Notes under the pieces: model-generated
Database searches by the model: none
Told to the model about the DNA's origin: nothing
Seen by the model: only the letters and a program-made list of their open reading frames with translations
From: Butyrivibrio sp.
Lineage (GTDB): Bacteria; Bacillota; Clostridia; Lachnospirales; Lachnospiraceae
DNA: 64,000 nucleotides
Assembly: GCA_023664865.1 (NCBI GenBank)
Contig: JAMPEU010000001.1
Coordinates: forward strand, 192,281-256,280
Direction: 5' to 3'
Made by a program: the position numbers and the translations under genes
Part shown: positions 2,791 through 45,523 of the stretch, piece after piece
Layout: the number at the start of each line of letters is the position of its first letter
Position numbering within the stretch: position 1 is the stretch's first letter

Positions 2791-2978
2791 GTAACAGTCC
2801 AGCCATCAGACAGCATGGACTCATATGTTTCCCTGAACAACCCTTGTAAAACGCCGGTACTTAGTGAAAAAGCTGCGTTTTAGCTTTTGAACTTAGTACC
2901 GCTGCGATTTTACACGGAGCGAAAGCGTGTTGCGAAGGGAACATATGAGTCCATGCTGTCTGATGGCTGGACTGTTAC
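2791..2978 (+). repeat. Dispersed palindromic element, copy A
   Basis: This is a 188-bp element with terminal inverted arms of about 42 bp (2791-2833 and 2937-2978) that pair with one single-base bulge. Inside is a second, imperfect stem (TGTAAAACGCCGGTACTTAG against CTTAGTACCGCTGCG and ATTTTACA) and an AT-rich inner hairpin. The core recurs at 26286, 26605, 32718 and 45373. The element lies between the convergent chemoreceptor and asnB genes, 3 bp from the asnB stop codon. The orientation named plus is that in which GGAGCGARAGCGTG follows the inner stem. Confidence 0.85.
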
Positions 2979-2980
2979 AC

Positions 2981-4822
2981 TTATACCGACAATGAAAACC
3001 GCTCGCAGAGCATAGTAACCGTCATTACTATTAAGAGATAATCAATCTCATATGCCCCCATAAGCTTAAAGTCGCTCTGGCTATAAACTTTTTTCATCTC
3101 GTTGACATAATCCACATCAAATATTCCGTATTTCTTAATCATCGAGTCTTCCAAGAACTCTCCGCCGCCCGAAGCCTTTACCATTGCCGACATGCCCGGA
3201 GCCTGAAAAGGAAACTTCTTACGCTTAAGAATTTCATTCGGCACGATTCCTTCCCCCGCCTTTTTCAATATATACTTCTCATTCGTCCCGTTTAACTTAT
3301 ACTTATCGGGTATCGCAGCGACAAACGCAAGCAGTTCCGCGTCCAGAAACGGATGCCGCCCCTCTACGGAATGTGACAGAAACATGCGGTCTCCGTGTTC
3401 TCCGAGAAGATGGTCAGACAGACGCAGCTTATAGTCGATATATGACCTTCTCTTCTGCGTGCTTAAGCCTTTAACATGCTCTACGTTTATAGGGCTCTTA
3501 GCCCATGCGGAAAATTTATCTATTTCCCCGCGGACATTGCTGCTGTATATTTTAGTATGGATTTTTCTGATTTCAGGGTGGTTTCTTTCATATCTGAAAT
3601 AAGGATCGCCCCACAGACGCTCGTTGACCTCACACTCCTCGGCTGTCATTTTTCCCTTTTGCATATTTCTGAATAAGTCTACCATATATCCTGCATAACC
3701 GCAGAAAAATTCATCTGAACCCTGCCCTGTAAGCACAGCCTTTGCCGGAGACTCCTTTACAAGCCCTGAAAGCAGATATGCCGCCACATCATAGCTTTCT
3801 TTTACCGCCGATTCGGCGTGGTAAATCACATTTCCTAAGTTTTCCCAGATTTCAGCCTCCGCTACCTTCGTGCTATAGTGCGTAGAGTTCACATAGTCGC
3901 GGATTATCTTCTGAAAACGGCTCTCGTCAAGCTCTCCCGCACCAATCTCCGCTGAAAAGGAATAATAGCTGTTTAATAGAAACTTTCCGATATAACACGC
4001 CACCACAGAACTGTCAAGCCCTCCTGAAATATAGAAACCAATCGGCACATCCGCGACAAGCCGTCTGGATATGGCAGTTTTCAACATCTCGCGAAGCCGC
4101 TCGACATAGTATGACTCTCCTTTGTCTTCCTCTTCTTCGGCGCTGTATAATAAATCCCAATATTCTATATCTTCAATTTCCTTATCCGGCATAATCTTCA
4201 ACATATGCCCGCATCTGAGCGAATATATGCCGTCAAAAAAAGTATTCGGCGATACGACTCCCGGATAATTCATAAGCTGGTCCACAGCTTTCATATTCAG
4301 CCTTCTCTCCACTCCCGGATACTCTAAAATAGCCTTGATTTCAGAGGCAAATATAACCCTTCCGTCCGATATCGTGTAAAATAGCGGCGAAATGCCTATC
4401 TGATCCCTCACAAGCAGAAGTTCCCCCGCCTTTTCATCATATAAGGCAATGGCGAACTGCCCATTCAATCGTTTGGCAAAGTCAAGCCCACATTCCTCAT
4501 ACAGATGCAGAATCACTTCCACATCCGTCTTAGTACGGAATACATGCCCCTTGGACATAAGCTCGTCCCTTAGTTCCTTGAAATTATATATTTCACCGTT
4601 GCATATCATGGATACGGTCTTATCTTCATTCTGAATCGGCTGCATTCCGCCGTCCAAATCAATAAAGCTGAGCCTGTTAAAACCAAGCCCTATGCCCTCA
4701 AGCACAAACGTCCTGCTGCCGTCCGGACCACGATGCCTGATTGCATTTAGCATATTCTCCAGAACTTCTTTTTCAATCCTCTTTTTATTCTTAAGATTAT
4801 AAATTCCGCAAATTCCGCACAT
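2981..4822 (-). CDS. asnB: Asparagine synthase (glutamine-hydrolysing) family amidotransferase
   Basis: At 613 aa it has the two AsnB domains. The N-terminal class II glutamine amidotransferase begins MCGICGIYN, so after Met removal Cys2 is the nucleophile that hydrolyses glutamine. The C-terminal ATP-pyrophosphatase synthetase domain has the PPi loop SGGLDSS at about 264-270. The standard reaction converts aspartate, glutamine and ATP to asparagine. Relatives in surface-polysaccharide loci amidate other carboxylates. Here it is the last gene of a dlt-like operon: its ATG lies 2 nt after the stop of the upstream SGNH gene, so translation is probably coupled. That makes a role in modifying an exported polymer, or feeding its precursor, at least as plausible as general asparagine supply. 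Fold and chemistry are certain; the acceptor is open. Confidence 0.9.
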   Translation of the reverse strand: MCGICGIYNLKNKKRIEKEVLENMLNAIRHRGPDGSRTFVLEGIGLGFNRLSFIDLDGGMQPIQNEDKTVSMICNGEIYNFKELRDELMSKGHVFRTKTDVEVILHLYEECGLDFAKRLNGQFAIALYDEKAGELLLVRDQIGISPLFYTISDGRVIFASEIKAILEYPGVERRLNMKAVDQLMNYPGVVSPNTFFDGIYSLRCGHMLKIMPDKEIEDIEYWDLLYSAEEEEDKGESYYVERLREMLKTAISRRLVADVPIGFYISGGLDSSVVACYIGKFLLNSYYSFSAEIGAGELDESRFQKIIRDYVNSTHYSTKVAEAEIWENLGNVIYHAESAVKESYDVAAYLLSGLVKESPAKAVLTGQGSDEFFCGYAGYMVDLFRNMQKGKMTAEECEVNERLWGDPYFRYERNHPEIRKIHTKIYSSNVRGEIDKFSAWAKSPINVEHVKGLSTQKRRSYIDYKLRLSDHLLGEHGDRMFLSHSVEGRHPFLDAELLAFVAAIPDKYKLNGTNEKYILKKAGEGIVPNEILKRKKFPFQAPGMSAMVKASGGGEFLEDSMIKKYGIFDVDYVNEMKKVYSQSDFKLMGAYEIDYLLIVMTVTMLCERFSLSV

Positions 4823-4824
4823 GG

Positions 4825-5877
4825 CTAATCCTGCTCCTCTCCCATCTGCCTTTGTATCTCCGCCTCATACGCGGCAATCTTCTCTTCCCATATCTTCTGC
4901 AGCCCTTCTTCACCCCTGCGGTCTTCAAGCCCCACTTCGTCTACAAGGAACTGCCCCAGATATGTTGAAAGTTTCTCCGCCCCCGACAGATTCATATGCA
5001 GTCCGGCATCATAAGTATCCGTACTGTAATCAATTCCGATTTCATCTATAAGCTCCAGAAAATTAATATATGTCAAATCATTCTCAGCAGCATAGTCTTC
5101 CACCTGGACTTCCCATTCGTCATACCAATAAGGATAAAGGCTCGGCGCTTTGATTAGGATGAGCGTTATTCCTTTTTCCTTACACAGCTTGGTCATCATA
5201 TCCAGATATTTCCACGCATTCTCGCCGAAACTGTAATCGCCCAGAATCCTGCCTTCAGGAACATTTTCGGCAGGCTTTACGTCCACGCGCATATAATAGC
5301 CGTTATGCGACACTTTTCTTGAGTTGAACATATACTGTACATCCGTCTTAGAAAGCTCGCTCCATCTGGTATGATACCTTAGTATCGGGAACACATAATC
5401 CAGAAATTGTTCATCAGGCTTCATTGAAGCCATAATCGCCTTGACTTTAGACGGCGACCATTTCATTCCTTCAAGCGACATGCGGTTATACGCCTCGCTC
5501 TGCGACTTATCAAATTGGAGCGACTGCACGTTAAAAACCACCACTTCCGGCGTCTCATAGCGCAGCGTATCTTCCAACAGATAATAAGACTGCCAGATAT
5601 ACTGTTCCGCGCTGCCCCTGATATAGCTGTTGATACCGTAATCTTCCCATAATTTTACCGGTGAAAAATTCTCATAGACCTCACAGTCACCGATAAATAT
5701 AACGTCAAAATCCTTTACTTCTTCATAATATTCGGCGATAAACGCGCCTTCCACAATGCCGTCCACATACTTAGGCACAAGCAGCCTTTGCAAAAGAAAA
5801 AGGCTGGCAATCACAATAAATGCTGAAATTAATGCCCTTATTACTTTCCGTTTAGGCGGAATATGTTTCGTATCCAT
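4825..5877 (-). CDS. DltD/SGNH-like membrane-anchored protein with Cys at the nucleophile position
   Basis: It has about 350 aa and one N-terminal membrane segment (about 17-35), so the rest is predicted to lie outside the membrane. The start was set at the second ATG (5877) because GAGGG sits 7 nt before it but only 1 nt before the ATG at 5883. The hydrolase-like core has IFIGDCEVYENFSP at about 60-73, where SGNH/DltD-type proteins normally carry a Gly-Asp/Ser-Ser nucleophile block. Here the nucleophile position is Cys (about 64). The partner Asp-x-x-His is present as DAGLHMN (about 290-296). The position between an MBOAT acyltransferase and asnB, in the DltD slot of a dlt-like operon, suggests transfer of an acyl or aminoacyl group to an extracellular polymer. 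The C-terminal tail is charged and probably helical. The Cys variant could be a real catalytic change or loss of activity. Confidence 0.75.
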   Translation of the reverse strand: MDTKHIPPKRKVIRALISAFIVIASLFLLQRLLVPKYVDGIVEGAFIAEYYEEVKDFDVIFIGDCEVYENFSPVKLWEDYGINSYIRGSAEQYIWQSYYLLEDTLRYETPEVVVFNVQSLQFDKSQSEAYNRMSLEGMKWSPSKVKAIMASMKPDEQFLDYVFPILRYHTRWSELSKTDVQYMFNSRKVSHNGYYMRVDVKPAENVPEGRILGDYSFGENAWKYLDMMTKLCKEKGITLILIKAPSLYPYWYDEWEVQVEDYAAENDLTYINFLELIDEIGIDYSTDTYDAGLHMNLSGAEKLSTYLGQFLVDEVGLEDRRGEEGLQKIWEEKIAAYEAEIQRQMGEEQD

Positions 5878-5921
5878 TCTCATGCCCTCTTTAATTTCTT
5901 GCTGTAACAGTTCAACTTTTT

Positions 5922-7529
5922 CTAAAAACGATTATATATAAACTGGCTGGCATCGTAGCCAGTGCCGTATGCGCCCATCAGCAGGATTACCAGAAACAGT
6001 CCATACCAGATGATAAAGCGTATTGGATAAGGTTTTGCGACTATTTTCTCCCTGACGCTGCCGTCACGCTGCCATAGGCTCACGCCAAGCATCACCAGCG
6101 CCCCTATCGCAACAATTATATAGTCAAGTGATGTAAGTCCGATATTTTTCATATCTAATGCAAACGGCATCTTCCAGTTTGAAATGTTAAACATGGACGC
6201 AATCGCTTTAAACGTAAGCGCCAGCGTGGGATAGCAGTCGAATATATTTAAAACGCATACTAACAGGAAGGTGCGCGCTATTTGAAAAATCTTATATGCT
6301 GCCTTCCCGCCCACGTTTACGCGGTTATGGAAACGTGCATATAAGGGCTCCAATTCCTCGGAAACCATCAAAACTGCCCAGTTTCCAAGCCCCCACACAA
6401 TAAAATTCCAGCTCGCGCCATGCCAGATTCCGGTCGCAAACCAGACTACAAACGACGAAACATATACGGGAAGGCGCCTGCCAGACTTTTCCCCGAAATG
6501 CTTACGCGAAAATTTCGTAAATTTCTGCATAGCCTTGCTTGACGAAACCGGATAGAAGACATAATCCCTGAACCAGTCACACATCGATATATGCCATCTG
6601 CGCCAGTATTCCTTAAGCGATTTGGAAAAGTAAGGGCGGTTGAAGTTTTCCTTCACGGTAATGCCCATAGTCTCGGCGATGCCAATCGTAATATCTATGC
6701 CGCCGGTAAAATCCGCATAAAGTTCCAGCGTATATAAAATCATGCCTACAAACACATATATGCCCTGGTAAGCAAGTTCGCCGCTTGCAGTGTATGTGCC
6801 AATTATAGTGTTTACGCCGATTAACACCCTGTCCGCTATAACCATCTTCTTAAAATAGCCCCATAGCATACGTTGAAGCCCATAGCAGACCGTCTTGGAA
6901 TCAAAGGCGTGTTCTCCATACAGACTCGCCCCTAGATCGCCATAGCGGCTGATTGGTCCCTGTATCAACTGCGGAAAGAAAGAAACAAACAAGGCAAATT
7001 TAAACGGGTTGCCCTGCGCTTTAACAGTTCCCCGATATACATCGATTAAGTATCCCATAGCTTGAAATGTATAGAAAGAAATACCCATAGGCAAGGCAAG
7101 CGTCATAAATGAAAGCTGCTTTGTATTGCCGAAAGCATTAAGAATACCATTTACATTAGAAATAAAAAAATTAGTGTACTTTACTACTGCGAGGATGCCT
7201 ATGTTGAGAATTATACACGCGCACAGCCATCTAAGACGCACCTTTTTACAGCCGTCTTTGTACGCGCGTTTCTCATCTTTTGACATCCCTTCCTTATGTT
7301 CCTTAAGATAATCGCTCTGTCTTAGGGCGTTCTGCTCTATCTTTAGCGCAGCGAAATAAGTAGTAAGCGTCGTAACCAAAATATAGATTAAGTATTCCGC
7401 TCCTGCTATAAAATAGAAAATATAACTCGCCGCAAGCAAAAGCTGCCACTGATATTTCTTAGGAATAAGATAATACGCCAGAAACAAAAGCGCTGCAAAT
7501 CCTAAAAATTCATAAGATGTAAAGAACAT
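5922..7529 (-). CDS. MBOAT-family O-acyltransferase (DltB/AlgI-like)
   Basis: This is a polytopic membrane protein of 535 aa with about ten or more hydrophobic helices. The MBOAT signature GIWHGASWNFIVWGL places the catalytic His near residue 369. Family members move acyl or aminoacyl groups from a cytoplasmic thioester carrier across the membrane onto polysaccharides or teichoic acids. ATG 7529 was preferred to TTG 7535 because GAGGAG lies 6 nt before it. Directly upstream is a free-standing acyl carrier protein gene and beyond it an adenylation enzyme, the same set of partners as DltA-DltC-DltB. Length and motifs also fit AlgI or PatA-type polysaccharide acetylases, but those do not come with an ACP and an AMP-forming ligase, so the dlt-like reading is favoured. 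Confidence 0.9.
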   Translation of the reverse strand: MFFTSYEFLGFAALLFLAYYLIPKKYQWQLLLAASYIFYFIAGAEYLIYILVTTLTTYFAALKIEQNALRQSDYLKEHKEGMSKDEKRAYKDGCKKVRLRWLCACIILNIGILAVVKYTNFFISNVNGILNAFGNTKQLSFMTLALPMGISFYTFQAMGYLIDVYRGTVKAQGNPFKFALFVSFFPQLIQGPISRYGDLGASLYGEHAFDSKTVCYGLQRMLWGYFKKMVIADRVLIGVNTIIGTYTASGELAYQGIYVFVGMILYTLELYADFTGGIDITIGIAETMGITVKENFNRPYFSKSLKEYWRRWHISMCDWFRDYVFYPVSSSKAMQKFTKFSRKHFGEKSGRRLPVYVSSFVVWFATGIWHGASWNFIVWGLGNWAVLMVSEELEPLYARFHNRVNVGGKAAYKIFQIARTFLLVCVLNIFDCYPTLALTFKAIASMFNISNWKMPFALDMKNIGLTSLDYIIVAIGALVMLGVSLWQRDGSVREKIVAKPYPIRFIIWYGLFLVILLMGAYGTGYDASQFIYNRF

Positions 7530-7541
7530 AAGCAACTCCTC

Positions 7542-7769
7542 TTATTCGTCTTCCAGCCTCTCAATCAGCTCATATATCGCCTGCGCCGAATTAAAATTCT
7601 CAGGTATTATATCTTTTGCCGTTATGTTTACGTCAAACTTATCGTTTATCTCTGTTATAAGACTCACGATATCAAAAGAATCCAGAATCATGTCGTCAAT
7701 CAGATTTTCCTCTGTCTCAAAATCAACATCGGGGTGTAAATCGCTCAAAATCATTAATAGTTCGTCCAT
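7542..7769 (-). CDS. Acyl/peptidyl carrier protein (DltC-like)
   Basis: At 75 aa it is acidic and has the length of DltC or a free-standing carrier domain. The phosphopantetheine attachment site is Ser31 in MILDSFDIVSL, matching the D-S-(L/F)-D consensus; holo-ACP synthase would act in trans. It starts at ATG with AAAGGAG 6-7 nt upstream. It lies between the adenylation enzyme, which should load it, and the MBOAT protein, which should accept its cargo. Fatty-acid synthesis ACP is unlikely because no fab genes are nearby. Confidence 0.9.
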   Translation of the reverse strand: MDELLMILSDLHPDVDFETEENLIDDMILDSFDIVSLITEINDKFDVNITAKDIIPENFNSAQAIYELIERLEDE

Positions 7770-7787
7770 CGTAATTCTCCTTTGCTT

Positions 7788-9305
7788 TTAATTTTCACTT
7801 AAATATGTCTTTTTTAAAGTAACCCTGTCTATTTTTCCGTTTGCCGTAAACGGAAGTTCTTCGACCTTAATAGTTCTGTTCGGCAGCATATAGCGGGGAA
7901 GTTTCAATTTTAATTCCACAGTCAGCTCCTTCTCCGAGCGTTCTCCGACAAAGTATAAAACTATCTTGGATTTCTTTTCATCATAAATACATGCCGTCAT
8001 GCGCACGCCCTTAACCATCGCGGCATTGACCTCTATTTCGCCTAATTCGATGCGGTGTCCCATATGCTTAATCTGGTAGTCCTTGCGGGAAACAAAAACC
8101 AGCTCTCCATTTTCGTTCATACGCCCAATATCCCCGGTCTTATAGATAAGCTCCGGATACGCGGCATTTAACGGATTTTGAACAAAAGCTTCGCTGGTGC
8201 GCGCCGCGTCGTTATAATAGCCCAACGTCAGGGAAGTTCCACGTATACATATCTCCCCTTCTTCTTTATCCGCCGCAGGCTGCCCATCTTCTTTCAACAG
8301 CAAAATCTCGCGGTTGGGGAAAGGCTGTCCTATCGGAACCGCCTCATCGTCTGCAAGTTCGCGCTCCACCTTATAATAGCAGCACATCCCCGTGCCTTCA
8401 GTCGGTCCGTAGAGATTGGTGAACGCCGCGTCTGGCAGGACGTTTCGCCATATCTTAAGCTGCTTTATGGGGAATACCTCGCTGCCAAAGGCAACCGTAT
8501 GCAGATATTCAGGCTTGACGGTCGAAAAGGTATCAAACGCGCTTACTAATGTGAGCGCGGATACCACCCAGCAAATAGTATTTATCTTATATGTATTCAA
8601 ATATTCCATAAGGGCGATAGGCCTTGAAAAAAGATTTCTCGGAATAAGGTAAGTGGTCGCCCCGAACTTAAGCGTCGGATACAGCTCTTTTAAACAGGCG
8701 TCAAAGTAGAGCGGCGCCTGATTGCCGAATACCGTATCTTCGTTAAATTCAAGCACTTCCGAAAGTTGCTCGATATAATCTATAACCGACCTATGGCATG
8801 CCGCCACACCTTTGGGAATCCCGGTCGAACCGGAAGTAAAAACAATATAAATCGGATCTGTATCAATCGCCTTACGGTAAATTGTCTCAAGCGCGGCATC
8901 ATCAATTTCCGTCTTAACCATTTCATCATAAGAAATAGCCGCACCGCCTTTTAAATCAAAGTTTCCGGCAATCTCCACAGTATCTTTATCGCAGATTACA
9001 AGCGGTGAACACACATTGTCTAATATCAGCTGAATCCTGCCTGAGGGCATCTCTTCGTCAATCGGCACATAGAAATTGCCGCCTGTAACCACCCCGAAAA
9101 AAGCCGCGACTTCCTGCGGGGATTTACGCATGAAAACCACGATGGGCTTTTTATATATCCCTTTATTATGAAGAAAACTGCCGATACTGCGACTTAAATC
9201 GTACACTTCCTTAAAGCTTAAGGACTGATTGCCGTCGGAAAAAGCCGTCTTATCAGGCTTTTCTTTCACTATATTGTTCAGGTATTTTAAGACGTTATTA
9301 TACAT
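7788..9305 (-). CDS. AMP-forming amino-acid adenylation enzyme (DltA-like)
   Basis: At 505 aa it has the size of DltA (D-alanine-carrier ligase). ATG 9305 was chosen over 9317 because the GAGGATTACC ribosome site sits just before it. ANL-superfamily core motifs occur in order: TSGSTGIPKGV (ATP loop), NLYGPTEGTG, GEICIRG, YKTGDIGR, SRKDYQIKHMGHRIELGEIE (hinge) and TANGKIDR with the catalytic Lys. It should activate a small carboxylic acid, probably an amino acid, and load the downstream carrier protein. Bacillus DltA has FCGE around the pocket cysteine linked to D-alanine selection (Cys269 in the B. cereus structures, from memory); the aligned segment here reads FGSE. The substrate may therefore not be D-alanine. 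First gene of the ligase-ACP-MBOAT-SGNH-asnB operon, with a lipoprotein gene 50 bp upstream. Confidence 0.88.
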   Translation of the reverse strand: MYNNVLKYLNNIVKEKPDKTAFSDGNQSLSFKEVYDLSRSIGSFLHNKGIYKKPIVVFMRKSPQEVAAFFGVVTGGNFYVPIDEEMPSGRIQLILDNVCSPLVICDKDTVEIAGNFDLKGGAAISYDEMVKTEIDDAALETIYRKAIDTDPIYIVFTSGSTGIPKGVAACHRSVIDYIEQLSEVLEFNEDTVFGNQAPLYFDACLKELYPTLKFGATTYLIPRNLFSRPIALMEYLNTYKINTICWVVSALTLVSAFDTFSTVKPEYLHTVAFGSEVFPIKQLKIWRNVLPDAAFTNLYGPTEGTGMCCYYKVERELADDEAVPIGQPFPNREILLLKEDGQPAADKEEGEICIRGTSLTLGYYNDAARTSEAFVQNPLNAAYPELIYKTGDIGRMNENGELVFVSRKDYQIKHMGHRIELGEIEVNAAMVKGVRMTACIYDEKKSKIVLYFVGERSEKELTVELKLKLPRYMLPNRTIKVEELPFTANGKIDRVTLKKTYLSEN

Positions 9306-9355
9306 GGTAATCCTCATTCTTGCCCAGCCTATGCAAACGGCTGCCTAAAAGCAGA

Positions 9356-9994
9356 TTAGTTTCCTGCCCCTGCTACATTTTCTTCCAATACGGTAGACCT
9401 GTATTCAATGGATACGATTTCATCTTCCTGCAGAATAAAGCAGAGTTTCATGCCGTCCTTAGCATAGACTGTCATTCCGCCGCTTTCCTCTCCGTCTCCA
9501 TACGCCTGCTGCATCTTCTCACGGGAATCGCCTATGCAGACGCCCTCCGCCGTAGATACGGAATCGTCTTTTATAATAAGCGAAGATACGTAGTCCGCAT
9601 CGTTCGTGGGATAGGTATCAAGTTCAAAGCCGTTATAGGTATACATCTTATCCAAACCTTCAAAGGCACAGCTTGCCGCCTCAAAATATGAAACCGGCTC
9701 GCCAAGCGCATCTATAATAGACGCTGCCTCTGCGTCTATTATAACAGATACGCCGTTATAGCTAAACACATATCCTTTTTCCGCCGCCTGCGCCTGCGTG
9801 CTTTCGGTCTGAGTGTCTTCTTTTACATCAGCCGAACCTGTATCAGACACGGATGTATTTGTTTCTTGTGTCTGCGCATTGTCTGACTCAATCGTCTGCA
9901 CATCGCCTTCAATTACTCTCTCTCCGCCGTTGCTCCCGCAGCCTGATAATAAAAGTAATGATGCCGTCATTATTATTGCTGTTGTTTTTTTCAT
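9356..9994 (-). CDS. Predicted lipoprotein of unknown function
   Basis: It has 212 aa and a lipoprotein signal peptide: KK, then a hydrophobic stretch, then LLSGC with lipidated Cys19. A Ser/Thr/Gln/Asp-rich linker (about 25-75) leads to a C-terminal domain of about 130 aa with two similar halves (GVSVIIDAEAASIIDALGEP and GVCIGDSREKMQQAYGDG). That layout recalls duplicated BLIP/SmpA-like small alpha-beta folds, which bind proteins. I do not recognise the family. RBS GGAGGAG lies 6 nt upstream. It precedes the dlt-like operon by 50 bp with no terminator in between, so it may be transcribed with it and act as a surface accessory factor; that is inference from position only. Confidence 0.8.
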   Translation of the reverse strand: MKKTTAIIMTASLLLLSGCGSNGGERVIEGDVQTIESDNAQTQETNTSVSDTGSADVKEDTQTESTQAQAAEKGYVFSYNGVSVIIDAEAASIIDALGEPVSYFEAASCAFEGLDKMYTYNGFELDTYPTNDADYVSSLIIKDDSVSTAEGVCIGDSREKMQQAYGDGEESGGMTVYAKDGMKLCFILQEDEIVSIEYRSTVLEENVAGAGN

Positions 9995-10040
9995 TTTACT
10001 CCTCCGTTCGTTTAGTATTAAAGTTATACTACTGTCACAA

Positions 10041-10121: not shown

Positions 10122-10133
10122 TCTGGTTATCGA

Positions 10134-12308: not shown

Positions 12309-12361
12309 ACAGAATACTCTCCAATGATTCTATACAATATCTGCTTTTGATAACCCTATGT

Positions 12362-13307: not shown

Positions 13308-13328
13308 ACACAATATATTAATATCAAA

Positions 13329-13613
13329 GGCTGTGAAGAGAAGAGTAAGTAGTTAGATATGTTACAGAGAACCTGATTAGGTGAGAGCAGGCGCAGAAGG
13401 AACTACTGAACATGGTCTCGGAGCCGCGCACCGAAGCTTTTATGCCAAGGCTGCGACGGGTGCACCCGTTATAGTGACAGACTATCGATGAATCATTTCT
13501 CGTCCGTAGTTGATAAGGCTTATATTGTGAGATATAAGTGAATTTAGGGTGGTAACACGAAGCAGACGCTCTCGCCCCTGAAAAAGAAATTTTTCAGAGA
13601 GGAGGGCTTTTTT
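13329..13613 (+). ncRNA. T-box riboswitch, methionine specifier
   Basis: This is a tRNA-sensing leader. Stem I closes with GGCT (13329) against AGCC (13422-13425) and extends through AGTAGTT pairing with AACTACT. Its specifier loop reads GAACATGG, with ATG at 13412-13414 in the specifier position, pointing to uncharged tRNA-Met as ligand. The conserved T-box sequence is AGGGTGGTAACACG (13546-13559). It is followed by a terminator hairpin (CTGAAAAA/TTTTTCAG core) and a T run ending at 13613. When uncharged tRNA-Met binds, the antiterminator should form and allow readthrough. The regulated gene should be metG, and exactly a metG remnant follows. Confidence 0.9.
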
Positions 13614-26285: not shown

Positions 26286-26464
26286 CAGTTCAGCCGGCAG
26301 GCACATAGGCATATATGTTTCCCCGAGTGGTACGCTCTCGCTCCTTGGAAAATCGTAACGGTACTAAGTTCAAAAGCTGCTTCGCATCTTTTTCACTAAG
26401 TGCCGACGTTTTCCAAGGACCACTCAGGGAAACATATATGCCTATGTGCCTGTCGGCTGAATTG
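26286..26464 (-). repeat. Dispersed palindromic element, copy B
   Basis: A 179-bp element in reverse orientation. Arms of about 38 bp pair nearly perfectly (CAGTTCAGCCGGCAGG at 26286 against CCTGTCGGCTGAATTG ending at 26464); both arm mismatches are G-T wobbles. The inner stem differs from copy A (CCTTGGAAAACG against CGATTTTCCAAGG) but still pairs. It begins 8 bp after the cysK stop. Confidence 0.85.
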
Positions 26465-26604: not shown

Positions 26605-26742
26605 GTTGTACAATATATACAAAACATAAGCAGGGCGCTCTGCCGCCGTCGGCACTTGGCGAGGTCTTTTCGAGCCTAGTACCGCTACTGGCGGCAATGC
26701 AGCGAAAGTGTGCCCTACGTTGTTTTGTATATATTGTACAAC
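26605..26742 (+). repeat. Dispersed palindromic element, copy C
   Basis: A 138-bp element whose 21-bp terminal arms (26605-26625, 26722-26742) are perfect but share no sequence with the arms of A, B, D or E. The inner stem is TGCCGCC against GGCGGCA instead of the AT-rich stem of other copies. The centre GAGGTCTTTTCGAGCCTAGT and the AGCGAAAGTGTGCC tail identify it as the same family. It lies 36 bp before the carbohydrate-enzyme gene, so it may be in that mRNA leader. The gap 26279-26778 otherwise holds copy B and about 140 bp of AT-rich sequence without an ORF. Confidence 0.8.
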
Positions 26743-32656: not shown

Positions 32657-32717
32657 ATTAAATAACCCTTTACCTTTCTCGATATGCTAATTTTTTATTA
32701 CTATTCACAATATTTAG

Positions 32718-32856
32718 GCGACATGGACTCATATGTTTCCTCTTGAGGTCCTTGTAAAACGCCGGTACTTAGCGAGGTATTTTCGAGCTTAGTACCGCTG
32801 CGATTTTACACGGAGCGAGAGCGTGCCTCAAGTGGCAGCATATGAGTTCATGTCGC
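32718..32856 (+). repeat. Dispersed palindromic element, copy D
   Basis: A 139-bp element. Arms GCGACATGGACTCATATG (32718-32735) and CATATGAGTTCATGTCGC (32839-32856) pair over 18 bp with one G-T wobble. Next inside come CTTGAGG/CCTCAAG, then the TGTAAAA/TTTTACA stem and the CGGTACTTAGCGAGG core. It is very close to copy E on the opposite strand, but with compensated changes in the arms (CTTGAGG here, CTTGTGG in E). It lies 33 bp after the glgP stop and about 60 bp before the HIT gene. Confidence 0.88.
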
Positions 32857-32889
32857 ATTCAGCCATATATTGACTATGAACAGTAACAA

Positions 32890-37937: not shown

Positions 37938-37947
37938 AAATTCCCCT

Positions 37948-40716
37948 TTACTTCCCGTTTCTCAGACTGTCTCTGATGTTAGCCACTGTTTCCAACGCCG
38001 ACATATAGTCAGACATTTCCACTTTTTTCTTTACAGGTTCAAGTCTCTGCGTAAGTCCTTCCCCATGGTATTGGTATTTCTGCATTTCTGACAGCAGTGT
38101 CAGCATCTTTTCACCATCCAGTGCATACACTGCGTCTTCAAACTCCGTTAAAAGTGTGTCGAACTTTTCTTCTGCAAGTTCTTCTGTGGGAGCGTTTGAG
38201 CCTGAGTTTTCTTCGATTGCTTTATTATCTGGCTTTTCCTCTTCAAACTCCTCCACTGGCTCGCTTAAGCTTTCCGTGGCAAGAAACTGCTCTACTTCTT
38301 TTATCACACGGCGGTATTCTATCAGCAGACCGTCGTGGTTAGCCTTGATAAAGCCGATATCGTCGCGCTTTCCGGCATGTTCTAAATCCTTTGCCTTAGC
38401 GGAAAGAACATCGGCGCCGATATTTTTCATGCCGCTTTTTATCGCATGCACCCTGATGGTATAATCTTTCCAGTTTCCGTCGGCAAAAAGCGTATTAAGC
38501 TGTTCTATCTCTTCCTCCGCGCCCTCGCAGCACACGTTTAAAACATTCAGATACAACTCTTTTCCGCCGCAATACAGCAATCCCTTCTCTACGTTCAAAT
38601 CTCCAACTGCAAACTCTTCGCTGTTCTTTTCCGAAACCTCTTCCTTAGTCTGGTATATCAGTTTCTTCTCCGGCAGATTGCGTTTCAGCACCCTTTCCAA
38701 TACGGAAGTCTCAATCGGCTTCTCCACAAAATCATTGAATCCCGCCTCCAGAAACATCTCACGGTTTCCCGGCGCGGCGTTTGCCGTCAGCACGACAATC
38801 GGCACTCTTTGGTAATAATGTCCTACTTTCTCGCGGATACGGTGCAGAGCCTCTATGCCGTCCATCACAGGCATCATATGATCCATGAACACAAGGTCGT
38901 ATGTCATGTCCTCAATCATATCCAACGCTTCCATTCCGCTCGTCGCATATGTAACCTTAATTCCATACTCCTTAAGCAGACCTTCCGCCACGCGGATATT
39001 TAGCATATTATCGTCCACTATCAGGACATGCGCTTCCGGCGCGATAAACCTGCCCTGACGCACCCACTGCTTGCCGCCTTCAGCCCCTGCGCTCCCATTC
39101 AGCACTGAAACCACAGGCAGTATGTAGAAAGGCTTGTAGAGTTTGATGATATTAGGATTGGTTATATATTTTTCCCTGGGACGATCGATTACAATTATCA
39201 CTTTGCCATGCTTTGAGATTTCATCAAAGTACGGCTCGTCCTCCTGATATTCTTCTAAGCTTATAAAAATATGCGTAAACGGCTCAAGGCTTTCCCTGCG
39301 CTTAAGCTCTGCTAAATTACGGCACGCATGGCACCTGACTTGAAGGCGTTTCACCATATTGACAATAAGCGTGGTATATTCGTCCCTTATAGACATCATG
39401 TCAAACTGCTCCATATCGAAATATGTAGCTATATTCAAATCTTCCCTGTGTTCTACCTGTACAATCGGCTTATCATCAAGCACTTTCTGCGGCACTACGA
39501 AGGAAAAATTGCTTCCCCTGTCTGGACGGCTCTTAACGGTAATGGTCCCGCCCATGTGGTGAATAAGTTCTTTTGAAATCGCCAATCCTAAACCTACGCC
39601 ACCGCTTTGCCTGTTCCTCCTTGTATCCACTTGTGTAAAGCTTTCAAACAGTTTCTCAAGGTTCGCCGCCTCTATGCCAATTCCGGTATCTTTAACCGAT
39701 ACACAGAGATTCACACCATAATTTTCTTTTCTGACGCTGACTGTAATGATAACGCCGCCCTCGCTGGTAAATTTGATGGCGTTATCCACCAGATTCATGA
39801 TTACCCTTCGTATCTTCTTCTCGTCGCCATACAAGACGCTGGGAATATCCGCAGCGCAGTCCACGATTAATTCAATCTGTTTCTCGCCCCTGCGCGCCAT
39901 CGCCATATTTATAATGTCGTTAATTGTGGAAGTGATATTATAAGCTTCTTCCTCAAGATTCATTTTTCCCTGCTGCAGTTGGGAAAAGTCAAGAATATCG
40001 CTGACCAGCGACATAAGATTGTGTCCCGCATCCCTGATGTCAAAAAGCTCCTCGCGTACTTTCTCCGTATCCTGCTCTCTCAGAGCCATATCGCTCATTC
40101 CGCAGATGGTATTGACAGGCGTCCGTATCTCATGGCTTATATTCGCCAGAAAGTCGTTTTTGCTCTGTTCTGCGTCCATAAGCGCCTCGACAACCTGATA
40201 CATCTGCCTGCTTGCCTCATTACGGTTCTTAAGCCAGACATACAGCACAATCTCCATACAGAAAATATTTCCAAGCTGATTCCACACATGCGCAATCGTC
40301 TCGGACGGCAGCTTGCTTAAGTTATCCGTAATGACGGCATGATAGAAAAGCACAAAAAACAGTGAACCTAACGTAATCCAGAGAAATTCCGGTTTCCCAT
40401 ATAACGCCACTAAAAGCAGCATAATCATGAACATAGGAAAAATTGCAGATACATCATCAACCGCCACGGCGTAAATAATAAGCATCGCCTGTATCATTAT
40501 ACAGGTAATCGCCGCCCTGACATTGATATTCCTGTATTTGCTTATCAATACGGAAAGAGTGACAAAATAAGCCGTCAAAAAGAACCCTATCAGCCATGCC
40601 TTCCCTTCCATGCCTGCGGCGGAAAAGCACAGCCTGACAGTATATACTCCATATATGGTATTGATGAATATCTCCATATTCCGTTGAGTTTTCTTATTTT
40701 TATTGAGAAATTCCAC
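37948..40716 (-). CDS. Hybrid histidine kinase with receiver and HPt domains
   Basis: It has 922 aa and starts at GTG 40716 with GGGGGAG 7 nt upstream. Six short membrane helices fill residues 20-155. HisKA has ISHEIRTP (phospho-His about 195), and the HATPase has NLVDNAIKFT, VKDTGIGI and GVGLGLAIS. A region at about 435-545 resembles a degenerate receiver. A full receiver follows with LIVDDNMLN and phospho-Asp about 610 in VFMDHMMPVMDG. The C-terminal HPt domain has VHAIKSGMKNIGA (phospho-His about 754) and then an acidic tail. This allows a complete His-Asp-His relay inside one protein, which could feed the receiver protein encoded 12 bp upstream or the DegV fusion downstream. The sensory input is probably membrane-associated. 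Confidence 0.93.
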   Translation of the reverse strand: MEFLNKNKKTQRNMEIFINTIYGVYTVRLCFSAAGMEGKAWLIGFFLTAYFVTLSVLISKYRNINVRAAITCIMIQAMLIIYAVAVDDVSAIFPMFMIMLLLVALYGKPEFLWITLGSLFFVLFYHAVITDNLSKLPSETIAHVWNQLGNIFCMEIVLYVWLKNRNEASRQMYQVVEALMDAEQSKNDFLANISHEIRTPVNTICGMSDMALREQDTEKVREELFDIRDAGHNLMSLVSDILDFSQLQQGKMNLEEEAYNITSTINDIINMAMARRGEKQIELIVDCAADIPSVLYGDEKKIRRVIMNLVDNAIKFTSEGGVIITVSVRKENYGVNLCVSVKDTGIGIEAANLEKLFESFTQVDTRRNRQSGGVGLGLAISKELIHHMGGTITVKSRPDRGSNFSFVVPQKVLDDKPIVQVEHREDLNIATYFDMEQFDMMSIRDEYTTLIVNMVKRLQVRCHACRNLAELKRRESLEPFTHIFISLEEYQEDEPYFDEISKHGKVIIVIDRPREKYITNPNIIKLYKPFYILPVVSVLNGSAGAEGGKQWVRQGRFIAPEAHVLIVDDNMLNIRVAEGLLKEYGIKVTYATSGMEALDMIEDMTYDLVFMDHMMPVMDGIEALHRIREKVGHYYQRVPIVVLTANAAPGNREMFLEAGFNDFVEKPIETSVLERVLKRNLPEKKLIYQTKEEVSEKNSEEFAVGDLNVEKGLLYCGGKELYLNVLNVCCEGAEEEIEQLNTLFADGNWKDYTIRVHAIKSGMKNIGADVLSAKAKDLEHAGKRDDIGFIKANHDGLLIEYRRVIKEVEQFLATESLSEPVEEFEEEKPDNKAIEENSGSNAPTEELAEEKFDTLLTEFEDAVYALDGEKMLTLLSEMQKYQYHGEGLTQRLEPVKKKVEMSDYMSALETVANIRDSLRNGK

Positions 40717-40728
40717 AGCGTTCTCCCC

Positions 40729-41802
40729 CTAATGCAACTGCCTGTATATCTTTCTTAGGATTTTAAAAATATCTGCATTGAACTTCTTGTCCACATCCGC
40801 CTCCATCATGGATAAGGCTTCCTCAATATGATACGGATCTCTGTATACGCGGTTCTCTGTCATCGCGCAGTAAGCGCTCACCACGGAAATAATCTGTGCG
40901 GACAAGGGAATTTCCTTACCTTTTAAACCGCACGGATAGCCGCTGCCATCCCAATTTTCATGATGATAATGCGCAATATCTATCGACATCTGCAAGAAAT
41001 CATTATAATCCCCGGTATCCCGTATATCTTCCAGAATCCTTGCCCCGATAGTGGTGTGCGTCCTTATTACTTCCAGTTCTTCAGTGGAAAGCGGCTCTTT
41101 TTTCTGCAAAAGGTCAGTAGGTATCGCCACGTTGCCTAGGTCGCATATAGGCGCCGCCAGTTCTATCGTATCTATGTATGAATCAGATATCTGGCTTCCA
41201 TACTCTTCAGATAACTGCATCGCTTCCGCCAATACCCGGCAGTTATAGCTCAGCCTTTCCATATGGTCTTTATCATAACATGCGTTTTCTCTCGCCACGC
41301 GGATAAGCGCATATAGCACATTCTTCTTCTCCATCTCAAGCTGGTGGAGCTGCTCTTCCACCGAAACCTGAAGCCGCCTGTTCATTTCCATCATTTCAGT
41401 GCTTGTTTCATAAAGTTTCAAATGCAGCTTAAGCCTTGCCTTTACCACCTGCGGTATAAACGGTTTGGTAATATAATCTCCGCCCCCAAGGTCAAGACCT
41501 TTCACAACGTCTGACGGATCGTCAAAGGCGGAGATGAATATTATCTGAATATCCCTGGTTGCCGGATTTTCTTTCAATATCTTACAGAACTCATATCCGT
41601 CCATTTCCGGCATCGCTATGTCCAGAATAATCAACTGCGGACTAAGCTTGTTGACGATTTTAAGCGCCTGTACGCCGTTCTCCGCCAATATCGGCTGGTA
41701 TCCCATCTCCTGAATTATATCCCTTAATACAAATCTGTTTGATGCGACATCATCTACAATAAGAATCTTTATCTTTTCGTCTATACTAACACCTTCTTCC
41801 AA
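40729..41802 (-). CDS. Response regulator with degenerate HD-GYP domain
   Basis: It has 357 aa. The receiver domain (10-125) has LIVDDVASN and phospho-Asp about 61 in LDIAMPEMDGYEF. A short coiled coil leads to an HD-GYP-like domain (about 170-350) retaining HHENWDGSGYP and PLSAQIISV. The metal-binding HD dyad is CD in PICDLGNVAIP (about 219), and the later Asp pair normally in VADVYDAL reads VVSAYCAM. Phosphodiesterase activity on c-di-GMP is therefore doubtful; it may bind nucleotide or act as an adaptor. The start is TTG 41802, lying in the T run of the pfkA terminator with no clear ribosome site; a start a few codons later is possible. First gene of the kinase cluster. Confidence 0.82.
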   Translation of the reverse strand: MEEGVSIDEKIKILIVDDVASNRFVLRDIIQEMGYQPILAENGVQALKIVNKLSPQLIILDIAMPEMDGYEFCKILKENPATRDIQIIFISAFDDPSDVVKGLDLGGGDYITKPFIPQVVKARLKLHLKLYETSTEMMEMNRRLQVSVEEQLHQLEMEKKNVLYALIRVARENACYDKDHMERLSYNCRVLAEAMQLSEEYGSQISDSYIDTIELAAPICDLGNVAIPTDLLQKKEPLSTEELEVIRTHTTIGARILEDIRDTGDYNDFLQMSIDIAHYHHENWDGSGYPCGLKGKEIPLSAQIISVVSAYCAMTENRVYRDPYHIEEALSMMEADVDKKFNADIFKILRKIYRQLH

Positions 41803-41838
41803 AAAAGGCTGAACCTTGACTGATTCAGCCTTTTTCTT
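41801..41838 (-). terminator. pfkA terminator overlapping the start of the regulator gene
   Basis: On the minus strand AAAAAGGCTGAA and TTCAGCCTTTTTT form a 12-bp stem with a T run that ends exactly at the TTG start of the next gene (41802). Readthrough is the only obvious source of transcript for the signalling genes, since no good promoter was seen between. Confidence 0.85.
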
Positions 41839-41902
41839 AATTTTATTTAGTCAAATGCCTTAAACAAGCCTCTTTGCCTACTACACATTATTCTTGCGCA
41901 GA

Positions 41903-43132
41903 TTAAGCCTTGCGTACCAAATGGCGAGGCAGCCCGTTTACAAATAACGGCTGTAATTCACCCATAATAAGCGGTCTTGCATACTTCTCATAACCGTCGT
42001 TAAGGTTCTTGCCGTCCGCTGTTATCCACTCATCGGGAACTTTTCTTTCAACATTGGCAATCGCATGAATATCATATGCGCTTGTCCCGCACTGGTAAGG
42101 AGCGTCGCCGTTTCTGTCAAGAGTAATCATCATGCCCGTCTTGCCTTCTTCAGCTGCATTTACAGCATCAAAACCAACCTGGAACGCTTCGTTGATATCG
42201 GTTAAGGAAGCCAGATGCGTAGCTGCACGCTGCAAGGTCGAAAATTCAATAGCGCGAGTCTTAAGGCCTGTCTCTGCCGCAATCTTATTGGCAAGCATAG
42301 CCGCTGTACCTGACATCTGCTTGTGTCCGAAGGCGTCAACCGCTACTTCTTTACCAAGCTCGCATACATAACGTCCGTCCGCAATATGCACGCCTTCTGA
42401 TACGGCGATAACTACGGAAGACTTCTCGTTGGCAAGCTTCTTAACATCTTCCATGAACTTGTCCATGTCGAATACTTTCTCGGGTAAATAAATAGCGTCA
42501 GGACCGCTGCAGTCATCGCCCTTAGAAAGCGCTGCCGCTGCAGTAAGCCAGCCTGCGTTACGTCCCATAATCTCTACGATGCAGATGGTAGGCTTCTGTG
42601 CGCCAAAAGACTCGTTGTCGCGGATAATCTCTTTCATGCTGGTCGCAATATACTTAGCAGCAGAACCATACCCGGGGCAGTGGTCGGTAATCGGAAGATC
42701 GTTATCAATCGTCTTGGGAACTCCCATGAACCTCTGCGGTTTGTTATGAGCCGCCGCATAATCGGATAACATCTTCACCGTATCCATAGAGTCGTTGCCG
42801 CCCGCATAGAACAGGCACTCGATATCGTGTTTCTCCATAATCTCAAAAATTTTCTCATATACGTCCTCATGCCCTTCAATCTTAGGCATTTTGAAACGGC
42901 ATGAACCCAAGAACGCCGAAGGAGTCCTTTTCAGTAATTCGATTCCCGTCTCGTCGTCAAGGTATTCTCCAAGGTCAATCATCTTGTCCTGCAAAAATCC
43001 CTCAATACCGTGAACCATACCATAAATCTTTTTTACTCCCAGTTTCTTAGCTGCGGCATATACGCCCGCTACGGAAGAATTAATAACGGCAGTAGGACCG
43101 CCGGACTGACCAACAACAATATTTCCCTTCAT
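41903..43132 (-). CDS. pfkA: 6-phosphofructokinase, predicted PPi-dependent
   Basis: It has 409 aa. GQSGGPTAVIN at the N-terminus and YAGGNDSMDT bind the phosphoryl donor. The catalytic block is VPKTIDNDLP: Lys in place of Gly in PKTID, and Asn-Asp in place of Asp-Gly in the GGDG motif, are the known markers that favour pyrophosphate over ATP. The enzyme interconverts fructose 6-phosphate and fructose 1,6-bisphosphate. It is longer than ATP-PfkA (about 320), as expected for PPi types. It has its own strong promoter, and the terminator overlaps the next gene. PPi use is inference from residues. Confidence 0.92.
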   Translation of the reverse strand: MKGNIVVGQSGGPTAVINSSVAGVYAAAKKLGVKKIYGMVHGIEGFLQDKMIDLGEYLDDETGIELLKRTPSAFLGSCRFKMPKIEGHEDVYEKIFEIMEKHDIECLFYAGGNDSMDTVKMLSDYAAAHNKPQRFMGVPKTIDNDLPITDHCPGYGSAAKYIATSMKEIIRDNESFGAQKPTICIVEIMGRNAGWLTAAAALSKGDDCSGPDAIYLPEKVFDMDKFMEDVKKLANEKSSVVIAVSEGVHIADGRYVCELGKEVAVDAFGHKQMSGTAAMLANKIAAETGLKTRAIEFSTLQRAATHLASLTDINEAFQVGFDAVNAAEEGKTGMMITLDRNGDAPYQCGTSAYDIHAIANVERKVPDEWITADGKNLNDGYEKYARPLIMGELQPLFVNGLPRHLVRKA

Positions 43133-43176
43133 TGCAAAAATCTCCTTTAATATCTTAATTTTTAATTTCTCATGAA

Positions 43177-43205
43177 ATTATACCAAAAAAATCCATATGT
43201 GGCAA
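43177..43205 (-). promoter_or_regulatory. Promoter of pfkA
   Basis: On the minus strand TTGCCA (43205-43200) and perfect TATAAT (43182-43177) are 17 bp apart. Confidence 0.8.
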
Positions 43206-43220
43206 GCGCGAAAAGGGGAA

Positions 43221-44108
43221 CTATGCCAAACATATTATTCTTGCATATTTATTTTCCGAATCTTCAACAATCTTGATTTTTCCTGTTTGAATAAGGTAAT
43301 CTATCCTTTTTGCATACCACCAGTCTCCTACTCCAAGAGGGCTATTGCCAAGTATATCGCCAATCAGCCTTGCTTCTTTTATCGGCTTTGGGGAAATTCT
43401 TTTCCAGATTAGGAAATCATAAAAGTCCTGCGCCACTCCGATAAGCTTTCCATTGACAAACGCGCGCAACGGGCTGTTATCCTCCTGCAAACTGCTCCAT
43501 AACATAGCATACATTCTGATTTCTTCCTCTGATAATTTATTTTCACAATTTAAAAATCCGGCAAATTCTTCTGCGGCAACCTCGCCCCAGTTTTTACATG
43601 AAACAATGACATTATCGGGGCGAACTCTGTATTCGGGCAGTTTTACAACGCTTATTTCATTCTGATGTCCTTGAAGGCTTACGCATAAATGATAAAATCC
43701 ACATCTTGAATATGGCGCGTCGCTATACCATATCCTAATCTTCTCCCCATCTGCTAAGTATTCTTTCAGTCGTTCCATTTCAGCGCAATAATGTCCACAC
43801 AACTGCATCAGCTCCGTATCCATCGTATCATCTTTTGTCCCTCGTTCTTGCGCATACATGGAATAAATCAGGTTCCTGCGGTACTCACTATTTACATCTT
43901 CCCTTATATCACCAATATCTAATAAAAAGCCAAGACAAATCACCTCGTCAGGCGTTCCTTCAATCCAGCCGCAGTTTTCCCTTTCCGGCGGTTTCTTTTT
44001 TCCGACTGTCCATATAGCTGTAGGACCATCAACTTTACTTATGATAACGGTGCTTTTGGCTGCCTTCATTGCGCCTGCTTCACTTTCTCCGAATAATACT
44101 TCTATCAT
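43221..44108 (-). CDS. DUF1835/DUF3658-domain protein
   Basis: It has 295 aa and appears cytoplasmic. The N-terminus (IEVLFGESEAGAMKAA) matches the start of DUF1835. The C-terminal portion with YAKRIDYLIQTGKIKIVED matches DUF3658. Two-domain proteins of this kind are common in Firmicutes and have no assigned activity that I know of. It is adjacent to the Na/Ca exchanger gene (26 bp) and on the same strand. The call is from memory of the family pattern. Confidence 0.75.
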   Translation of the reverse strand: MIEVLFGESEAGAMKAAKSTVIISKVDGPTAIWTVGKKKPPERENCGWIEGTPDEVICLGFLLDIGDIREDVNSEYRRNLIYSMYAQERGTKDDTMDTELMQLCGHYCAEMERLKEYLADGEKIRIWYSDAPYSRCGFYHLCVSLQGHQNEISVVKLPEYRVRPDNVIVSCKNWGEVAAEEFAGFLNCENKLSEEEIRMYAMLWSSLQEDNSPLRAFVNGKLIGVAQDFYDFLIWKRISPKPIKEARLIGDILGNSPLGVGDWWYAKRIDYLIQTGKIKIVEDSENKYARIICLA

Positions 44109-44134
44109 ACTTAATCCCTATACTCCTTTTTACC

Positions 44135-45085
44135 CTATCCCTGCAGCAGATATACAAAATATGCGCCGTAGCATACCAACATAATAATACCGCCGCTGCG
44201 ACTAAGCTTCTGTTTACGCAGTACGCACAGCCAGAGCAGAACGGCTGCCGCTATGCAGGCAATGCTGTCGATGAGGAAAGCGTTAGAATAAACAACAGGT
44301 GTTATTGTTGCAGTAATTCCTACTACAAAAAGAATGTTGAACAGGTTGCTTCCTACGATATTTCCAACCGCAATATCCGCCTTGCCCTTGATTGCCGCCG
44401 TAGCGGAGGTGACAAGCTCAGGAAGCGAAGTTCCGAATGCTACAATCGTAAGTCCGATAAGCCGCTCGCTCATACCGAATATCCTTGCAAGTTCAGTCGC
44501 CGCATCAACCGTAACGTCGCTGCCTATTACAATCATAACGCCGCCGATAAGAATCATTAAAAGAGTCTTTAATATACTGCTCTTTTTATCGTCTTCCTTT
44601 TTCTCTTCGACCGCTGCCTCTGCCTGCCCTTTCTTCGTCATGCGCAACAGATAAAGCATGTACAGCGCCATGCCGATTAACAGGATAAGACCTTCAAGCC
44701 TGCCTACCGTTCCATCAAAAAGCCCTAATGCCGGTAAAAGCAGCGATGCTGCAATTACAATGGGGATTTCATATTTAACAGTCGATTTCTGCACAAGCAG
44801 CGGCGAAATTGCCGCGGTAATGCCTAGGATTAAAAGCACGTTCATTATATTGCTGCCAAGTACATTGCCTATCGTAATCTCCGCGCTGCCTTTCAGGGCT
44901 GCAGAAGTGCTGACCGCTGCTTCCGGCAGGCTTGTACCCATCGCTACTATCGTAAGCCCGATAACAAGCTGCGGTATTCCGAACCTCTCGGCAAGACTGC
45001 TCGCGCCCTCCACAAACCAATCGGCTCCCTTTACCAGCATAACGAAGCCCACTACTAATAATAACAGTTGTAATGCTATGTTCAT
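44135..45085 (-). CDS. Calcium/sodium antiporter (CaCA family, YrbG-like)
   Basis: It has 316 aa and ten predicted helices in two inverted repeats. The two alpha-repeat signatures are AMGTSLPEAAVSTSAALKG with GNVLGSNIMN, and AFGTSLPELVTSATAAIKG with GNIVGSNLFN. These line the ion pathway in the NCX fold. It should export Ca2+ or a similar cation in exchange for Na+ or H+. RBS GGAAGGGAG. The upstream leader has a terminator-like hairpin and a GGGAGTAG motif, suggesting metal-responsive control. Confidence 0.93.
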   Translation of the reverse strand: MNIALQLLLLVVGFVMLVKGADWFVEGASSLAERFGIPQLVIGLTIVAMGTSLPEAAVSTSAALKGSAEITIGNVLGSNIMNVLLILGITAAISPLLVQKSTVKYEIPIVIAASLLLPALGLFDGTVGRLEGLILLIGMALYMLYLLRMTKKGQAEAAVEEKKEDDKKSSILKTLLMILIGGVMIVIGSDVTVDAATELARIFGMSERLIGLTIVAFGTSLPELVTSATAAIKGKADIAVGNIVGSNLFNILFVVGITATITPVVYSNAFLIDSIACIAAAVLLWLCVLRKQKLSRSGGIIMLVCYGAYFVYLLQG

Positions 45086-45120
45086 TTTTCTTCTCCCTTC
45101 CTACTTTGGTAAACTTATAT

Positions 45121-45300
45121 AAAAAATAAAGACCTTCGGCACTTTCGTGCTAAAAGTCTCGTACTTTCTTGTATTTCCTTGCATTAAATCAAGATTTAAC
45201 ATTTAATCATGTCTAAATATTGACTCTGGAAAATCGAAAGATGCGCAAACACGGTCTTCACCGGGGCATGTTGCTTACGCATAAATAACTACTCCCTCTT
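45121..45300 (-). promoter_or_regulatory. Structured leader of the antiporter gene, possible metal riboswitch
   Basis: On the minus strand the leader has GAGGGAGTAG (from about 45298), a long hairpin around CCGGTGAAGACCG, and finally a terminator-like hairpin (AGCAC GAAA GTGC with flanking pairs) followed by TATTTTTTA (ending about 45121). AAGACC in the early hairpin can pair with GGTCTT of the terminator, as in an antiterminator. GGGAGTAG next to a cation exchanger recalls the yybP-ykoY Mn2+/Ca2+ class, but I could not fit the full consensus. Confidence 0.4.
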
Positions 45301-45372
45301 AACTTGTCATTAGAGTATCATATGTGGCTGGCAGTGTCAATAACTTTTTAGGCAGACATATATATATTGAAT

Positions 45373-45523
45373 GCGACATGAACTCATATGTTTCCACTTG
45401 TGGCATGCTCTCGCTCCGTGTAAAATCGCAACGGTACTAAGCTCAAAAGCCAAAAATCAGCTTTTTCGCTAAGTACCGGCGTTTTACAAGGACCACAAGT
45501 AGAAACATATGAGTCCATGTCGC
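45373..45523 (-). repeat. Dispersed palindromic element, copy E
   Basis: A 151-bp element in reverse orientation. Arms GCGACATGAACTCATATG (45373-45390) and CATATGAGTCCATGTCGC (45506-45523) continue inward through TTTCCACTTGTGG and CCACAAGTAGAAA for about 31 bp. The inner stem and the CGGTACTAAGCTC core match A and D. It lies between the divergent antiporter and MATE genes. The 551-bp gap 45086-45636 holds the antiporter leader, this element and the MATE promoter region. Confidence 0.88.

Follow-up and report, generated by a model that had tools for sequence, protein, structure and literature searches.

Bacterial miniature inverted-repeat transposable elements (MITEs) are short, mostly intergenic repeats of high copy number that carry terminal repeats and are flanked by a target duplication of fixed length. 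Here, we describe a family of long palindromes that shares these traits, the fixed-length duplication being shown in one genome (G016), and that is represented by five copies, A to E, in a 64,000-nucleotide stretch of a Butyrivibrio sp. genome (GenBank assembly GCA_023664865.1, contig JAMPEU010000001.1, positions 192,281 to 256,280; hereafter the window). Unlike bacterial MITEs, the palindromes contain a long internal hairpin and a structured core conserved throughout a bacterial family, their terminal repeats and arms vary between species, and a parent element has not been found for them. The element bcr1 of Bacillus cereus is also interspersed, structured, mobile and of similar size, a likeness of general description. 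REP, BIME and REPIN repeats, which are moved by RAYT, are likewise described as extragenic palindromes present in more than 100 copies, with close pairs in opposite orientation (PMC3116915, PMC2817692, PMC3733652). REPs are, however, given a length of 20 to 40 bp (PMC3733652), whereas copies in the window measure 140 to 190 bp and their genome lacks a Y1 transposase. Finally, quasipalindrome correction by template switching is described as changing both bases of a stem pair together, with no intermediate G.U (PMC8794818), as we see here; it is a mutation process and not an element, whereas in our case the changes extend across a whole repeat family and a mismatch in the core is spared.

On balance, we lean toward the view that the palindromes are a family-wide, non-autonomous, MITE-like DNA element with a conserved folded core and with arms that are most likely corrected at the DNA level. 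Movement would be catalyzed in trans by a DDE-type transposase, as the terminal repeats and 9-bp duplications of G016 suggest. The hairpin would allow replication to copy one arm from the other by template switching, and this copying most likely keeps the arms matched while their sequence drifts. The sparing of the core mismatch suggests that the folded core may still be recognized by something.

Anatomy and concerted change of the arms

Reading inward, an outer terminal repeat is followed by a spacer that is unpaired, by the complementary arms with an inner stem (P1), and by a core that is asymmetric. The core comprises a junction carrying a GNRA mini-hairpin of two base pairs (GGAGCGARAGCGTG), a variable stem (P2), an asymmetric internal loop, a stem P3, and an apical hairpin of variable length that often holds opposed GA/GA. 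All eight GNRA variants occur in the mini-hairpin loop, a motif that the search pattern partly enforces. P3 has ten positions, at which CGGTACTTAG and CTTAGTACCG are complementary apart from a single T.T mismatch, present in 259 of 265 pooled copies; this refines the constant core recognized in the preliminary description of the window.

That description also held that the arm sequences change while their complementarity is kept, and comparison of copies confirms it. Among 66 copies from the window's own genome, the two arms agree at 20.70 of 22 positions within a copy and at 16.47 of 22 across copies. Changes on both sides number 187, of which 167 keep the pair, compared with 75.6 expected if the arms were independent. 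There are also 109 one-sided changes, but 54 occur at a single position whose consensus base differs between the two arms, and many of the 54 are therefore in fact paired. One copy (L024) carries an identical extra base in both arms. In the sister genome G016, perfect arms are found in only 1 of 14 copies with both terminal repeats (17.5 of 19 positions agreeing within copies versus 16.4 across), compared with 6 of 10 copies that lack the repeat on at least one side (18.4 versus 14.7). In-place correction as copies age fits this contrast better than renewal at each jump. In G031, from another genus (g14), the arms differ in all nine copies read. The loose arm patterns missed 1 of 10 copies in G031, 2 of 10 in G080, 4 of 8 in G252, the sole copy in G059 and all five stretches in G307; among the arm rows of the set comprising G031, G080, G252 and G059, a few look mis-anchored.

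Base pairing could be maintained by selection or by templated repair, both of which had been proposed from the sequence. Selection acting on one strand as RNA should tolerate G.U but not A.C. In 258 of the 265 pooled copies, the arms contain 277 G.T-type and 311 A.C-type mismatches (p 0.17); the seven omitted copies have low arm scores, and 11 mismatches at one position in the window's genome (9 G.T-type, 1 A.C-type) were set aside. Isolated arm mismatches are likewise balanced (82 G.T-type versus 67 A.C-type, p 0.25). In the core, G.U accounts for 3.0 to 4.2% of cells in five samples of 30, whereas the same pipeline gives 20.1% for signal recognition particle (SRP) RNA from 30 genomes of the same bacterial family. 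Template switching is described as able to produce a direct change from one Watson-Crick pair to another, bypassing G.U (PMC8794818). Because the arm mismatches have no overall strand bias and the core stems are poor in G.U relative to SRP RNA, we prefer templated repair to selection on the pairing of an RNA, and DNA-level correction to a cis-regulatory RNA.

Ends, empty sites and distribution

In G016, the repeated unit is about 223 to 225 bp long and is bounded at both ends by a 24-base terminal inverted repeat, CACGGAAATCAATTTTCAGTCAGC. When 21 of its bases were searched for with up to two mismatches, 62 matches were obtained, compared with none for a control pattern. The 9-mers flanking 11 repeat pairs have an identity of 0.66, versus 0.33 for shuffled pairs (z 6.1), and the other flank lengths from k 3 to 12 give z of at most 2.1. 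An outer motif in the window's genome, TTACTRTTCAYARY, has 27 matches versus 1 for its control, 22 of which lie within 105 bases of a covariance-model match. Empty sites in close strains, suggested earlier as a check, were found for copy D: the gap between the phosphorylase and HIT-protein genes is 233 bases long in the window's genome, but only 23 in G010 and 47 in G007, both without the element (the G010 phosphorylase is 94% identical). At one g14 locus, 10 of 18 genomes have empty gaps of 9 to 59 bp. Copies were also found truncated or collapsed. Of the two possibilities left open in the preliminary description, a mobile element or a structured RNA, the terminal repeats, 9-bp duplications and empty sites fit the former, in its non-autonomous form; a cis-regulatory RNA is not supported.

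At two places in the window's genome (L257:1907-1980 and L258:2463-2502), we observed outer repeats lying end to end and most or all of the hairpin gone, which gives the impression of a collapsed palindrome. Lone terminal repeats were considered as ends of an autonomous element and rejected, as those read are truncated, collapsed or at contig ends. The six open reading frames (ORFs) scanned beside them encode FtsX/MacB, 6-O-methylguanine methyltransferase, radical SAM, VTC, YcxB and TraX proteins and no transposase. A RAYT/Y1 transposase was also rejected as partner, as the presence of PF01797 does not track the element: this domain is absent from the window's genome and six other element-bearing genomes (G000, G160, G016, G004, G046, G059 and G307), but present in seven others that bear the element (G010, G031, G080, G252, G295, G298 and G304) and in 8 of the 11 that were treated as free of it.

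We searched for further copies with a covariance model of 52 cores, as had been proposed. The window's genome contains at least 150, all 150 places scoring at E<=2.1e-11 from 932 first-look candidates. By DNA similarity to copy D, 16 of 31 genomes match, all from the window's genus. An order-wide sample of 295 genomes, searched with the model under stricter filters and with few candidates scored in each, contains 30 that match. All 30 belong to the Lachnospiraceae (a name judged from the named matches), and 18 further genomes listed for the same family have no match. A class-wide sample gave 11 matching genomes of 391, again all in this family. In a pattern scan of named genomes, 58 of 80 rows among the matches listed bear Lachnospiraceae names, 40 of them by family name; the count includes Butyrivibrio, Blautia, Acetatifactor and [Clostridium] symbiosum, which we take to belong here. 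The remaining rows among those listed comprise 19 with broader names and 3 labeled Mogibacterium, a genus of another order, Peptostreptococcales. These three metagenome-assembled genomes (L143, L168 and L182) do carry the element, and are either mislabeled bins or evidence of spread outside the family.

The element also lies on the 0.63-Mb plasmid of a cultured species, Lachnospira eligens ATCC 27750 (L395:1401-1580; NC_012780.1 near 358,160), with no listed gene beneath it. Spread by phages or plasmids was rejected, as an exact pattern scan of IMG/VR gave 0 matches, the plasmid search gave 2 weak records, both from Lachnospira eligens, and the phage search gave 1 weak record over 41 bases.

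What the core conservation implies

Several observations weigh against the MITE-like reading with corrected arms. Regarding mobility, G016 is the one genome with a strong 9-bp target duplication; the window's genome gives z 3.3 and 2.9 for k=8 and k=9, below the 3.7 obtained for k=4 (26 candidate pairs). None of the lone terminal repeats read in G016 or the window's genome led to an autonomous parent with the same ends; they are part of those present in two fragmented draft assemblies, and a parent may still exist. No obvious mobility gene recurs beside the copies by eye when 754 nearby ORFs are clustered; the clusters reach at most 14 loci and look by eye, without a family scan, like common families. 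Regarding the arms, G016 alone has 68 A.C-type versus 45 G.T-type mismatches (p 0.04), and at five orthologous g14 loci one-sided arm changes outnumber both-sided ones, 33 to 7.

Other observations of this kind come from the core. In 76 non-redundant rows, its pairs contain 75 G.U and 22 A.C cells (p 6e-8), an excess that, taken alone, speaks for RNA. At the five orthologous loci compared between G031 and G080 (the pair L298/L308 was left out as mis-anchored), the core differs at 0, 0, 1, 3 and 19 of 75 to 76 positions, and at four of the five it has diverged less than either flank. Since the core is conserved while the arms change one-sidedly, the core appears constrained at these loci and the arms do not, which is the main result against a purely passive element. 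Passive decay fails to explain the constancy of the core, and constant correction fails to explain the one-sided arms. A factor that reads the folded core would be compatible with this constraint, and also with the T.T mismatch: simple arm correction should erase a T.T, and its retention suggests that something still recognizes the fold. The GNRA loop, the kept T.T, two G.U-rich pairs and the low divergence are together compatible with a role of the core as RNA or as a folded single strand.

We also considered that the form in which the element moves or acts may be a folded single strand of DNA, with an enzyme reading the core hairpin through its mismatch and mini-hairpin, so that the stem sequence is free and only pairing and unpaired bases are kept. 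Folded DNA is read in a comparable way at attC sites, which a tyrosine recombinase recognizes, and at REP hairpins, whose palindromes end in a GTAG or CGTC tag. In line with this possibility, the T.T mismatch and loop bases are kept while the stems vary freely, the stems are mostly Watson-Crick with few G.U, and the apical hairpin is common to a second family described below. Close copies also have a preferred arrangement: among listed covariance-model matches no more than 500 bases apart, 19 of 20 pairs counted by eye are divergent (-,+), although a looser motif scan, too permissive and with many matches that look false, finds only 29 of 60 divergent at gaps of up to 300. However, the seven element-bearing genomes without PF01797, no linked recombinase recognized by eye among the nearby ORFs, and the terminal repeats and 9-bp duplications of G016, which point to a DDE enzyme, make a folded-strand mechanism a possible but doubtful alternative.

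A structured non-coding RNA, expressed from many loci and conserved since its fold binds a host protein, seems to us unlikely. Covariation is commonly read as a strong sign of functional RNA, and in the core it is pronounced: 28 of 28 pairs show both-sided change, and covariation is 0.656, compared with 0.167 when shuffled and at most 0.102 when slid. The GNRA loop, the core's G.U excess and low divergence, and the occurrence of the apical hairpin in a mostly sense-oriented tandem family point the same way. However, two positions hold 49 of the 75 G.U cells, leaving by subtraction 26 G.U versus 22 A.C elsewhere; G.U falls far below its level in SRP RNA; the arms have no overall strand bias; and Rfam has no matching family. 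Orientation to genes is also unbiased over 170 copies (++55, --62, +-27, -+26; 171 3' ends and 169 5' ends), as judged from naive ORF calls, with 22 copies inside a called ORF. On this basis, a riboswitch or terminator was rejected, and a cis-regulatory RNA is not supported. A subset of 32 copies from the window's genome, whose neighbors lean toward 3' ends (40 versus 24, p 0.06), runs counter to this and belongs with the observations against our reading.

It is very improbable that the arms are target DNA, the core having gone into palindromes already present, for example terminators or REP-like repeats. In favor of this idea, the nine G031 copies read all have different arms, and a single gap contains a palindrome without the core in G314 and, in G315 and G339, larger relatives. 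Against it, copies at different loci share arms in both the window's genome and G016, and the empty D sites contain no arm sequence by eye.

Copies in the window and a second hairpin family

All five palindromes lie where they had been placed from the sequence (Table 1). Each folds into a single long hairpin, and the two folds tested against 200 shuffles each have z of -9.85 (D) and -7.94 (C). The covariance model matches the window at exactly these five places, all with E<=1.1e-19; its three other matches are weak (E 0.0067 to 0.07) and are antisense shadows, one each of D, E and A. The tail motif GGAGCGARAGCGTG, with up to two mismatches, has 6 matches in the window versus 0.67 expected: one in each copy and one at 13565.

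Table 1. Palindrome copies in the window (B and E run opposite to A, C and D, on the minus strand)
Copy	Position	Strand	Core	Distinctive sequence	Context
A	2790..2979	+	2835-2937	outer arms start GTAACAGTCCAGCC	between convergent MCP and asparagine synthase genes
B	26286..26464	-	26323-26425		3' of PALP (PLP-dependent enzyme) gene
C	26605..26742	+	26630-26720	TTGTACAATATATACAAAA arms; AGCAGG inner stem	divergent partner of B; upstream of ORF without Pfam match
D	32697..32887	+	32743-32833	outer repeats TTACTATTCACAAT / TTACTGTTCATAGT; candidate 8-bp target duplication AATTTTTT/AATTATTT, 7/8 identical	between phosphorylase and HIT genes
E	45373..45523	-	45396-45498		between divergent Na/Ca exchanger and MATE genes

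The bounds first given for D omitted its outer repeats and are better drawn as in Table 1. Copy C had been described as unlike the rest. Its arms indeed differ, but its inner stem, AGCAGG, begins 19 of 98 rows of a wider alignment and is the commonest beginning, so it is A, B, D and E that look like the derived type. The earlier suggestion that no named family fits agrees with our searches: across the whole window, the palindromes match no Rfam 15 covariance model at gathering score, and around D, with E up to 10, five weak matches all fall far under gathering scores. We found no description of this palindrome family among the open-access titles and abstract openings searched. Elsewhere in the window, Rfam identifies a T-box leader at 13324-13582 (93.6 bits, barely over its gathering score of 93).

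Of 11 chosen genomes, 8 contain the apical hairpin when it is searched for alone, and the control gave no match in any of the 11. In g14 genomes, 14 hairpin pairs among the apical matches listed are spaced exactly 44 bases apart, and these tandem hairpins are part of a second element family that shares the apical module. Its members (L396-L408, L410 and L413, from G315, G152, G342, G080, G314 and G339; for example L399:335-405, in that stretch's own minus-strand numbering) lie between genes read by eye as pheS, rplB and tRNA genes. They are mostly in sense orientation, in 15 of 19 scored upstream frames and 16 of 21 downstream frames by a naive test. When the tandem hairpins of L399 were searched against Rfam, the neighboring T-box alone matched.

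Two further observations concern flavoprotein-like genes. In L056, L216 and L254, elements lie near the same kind of such gene, at a median of 71 bases to the core, possibly by chance. A gap between two genes of this type contains the element in G080 and G031 and a larger palindrome in G315 (L344) and G339 (L349, which has two additional apical modules); the palindrome of G314 (L348) at this gap lacks the core.

The sharing of the apical hairpin led us to a tentative and rather speculative proposal that ACTTRG-YGA-GGTNNTTTC-GAR-CYTAGT is a recognition module, common to the palindromes and the 44-bp tandem hairpins, which a family-specific factor might read as a folded single strand of DNA or RNA. 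The palindromes would then be a new mobile class that needs the folded core but accepts any stem sequence, its arms being rewritten to match.

Returning to the MITE-like reading, the palindromes constitute a family, with many copies per genome, that has strong covariation yet few G.U pairs compared with an actual RNA of the same bacterial family. Their arms lack an overall strand bias, which is what DNA template switching should give. They therefore offer a natural test set for separating RNA selection from DNA template switching. For the Lachnospiraceae, the result is a family of interspersed repeats that has no entry in Rfam and can be annotated, searched for its mobilizing enzyme and perhaps used in strain typing.

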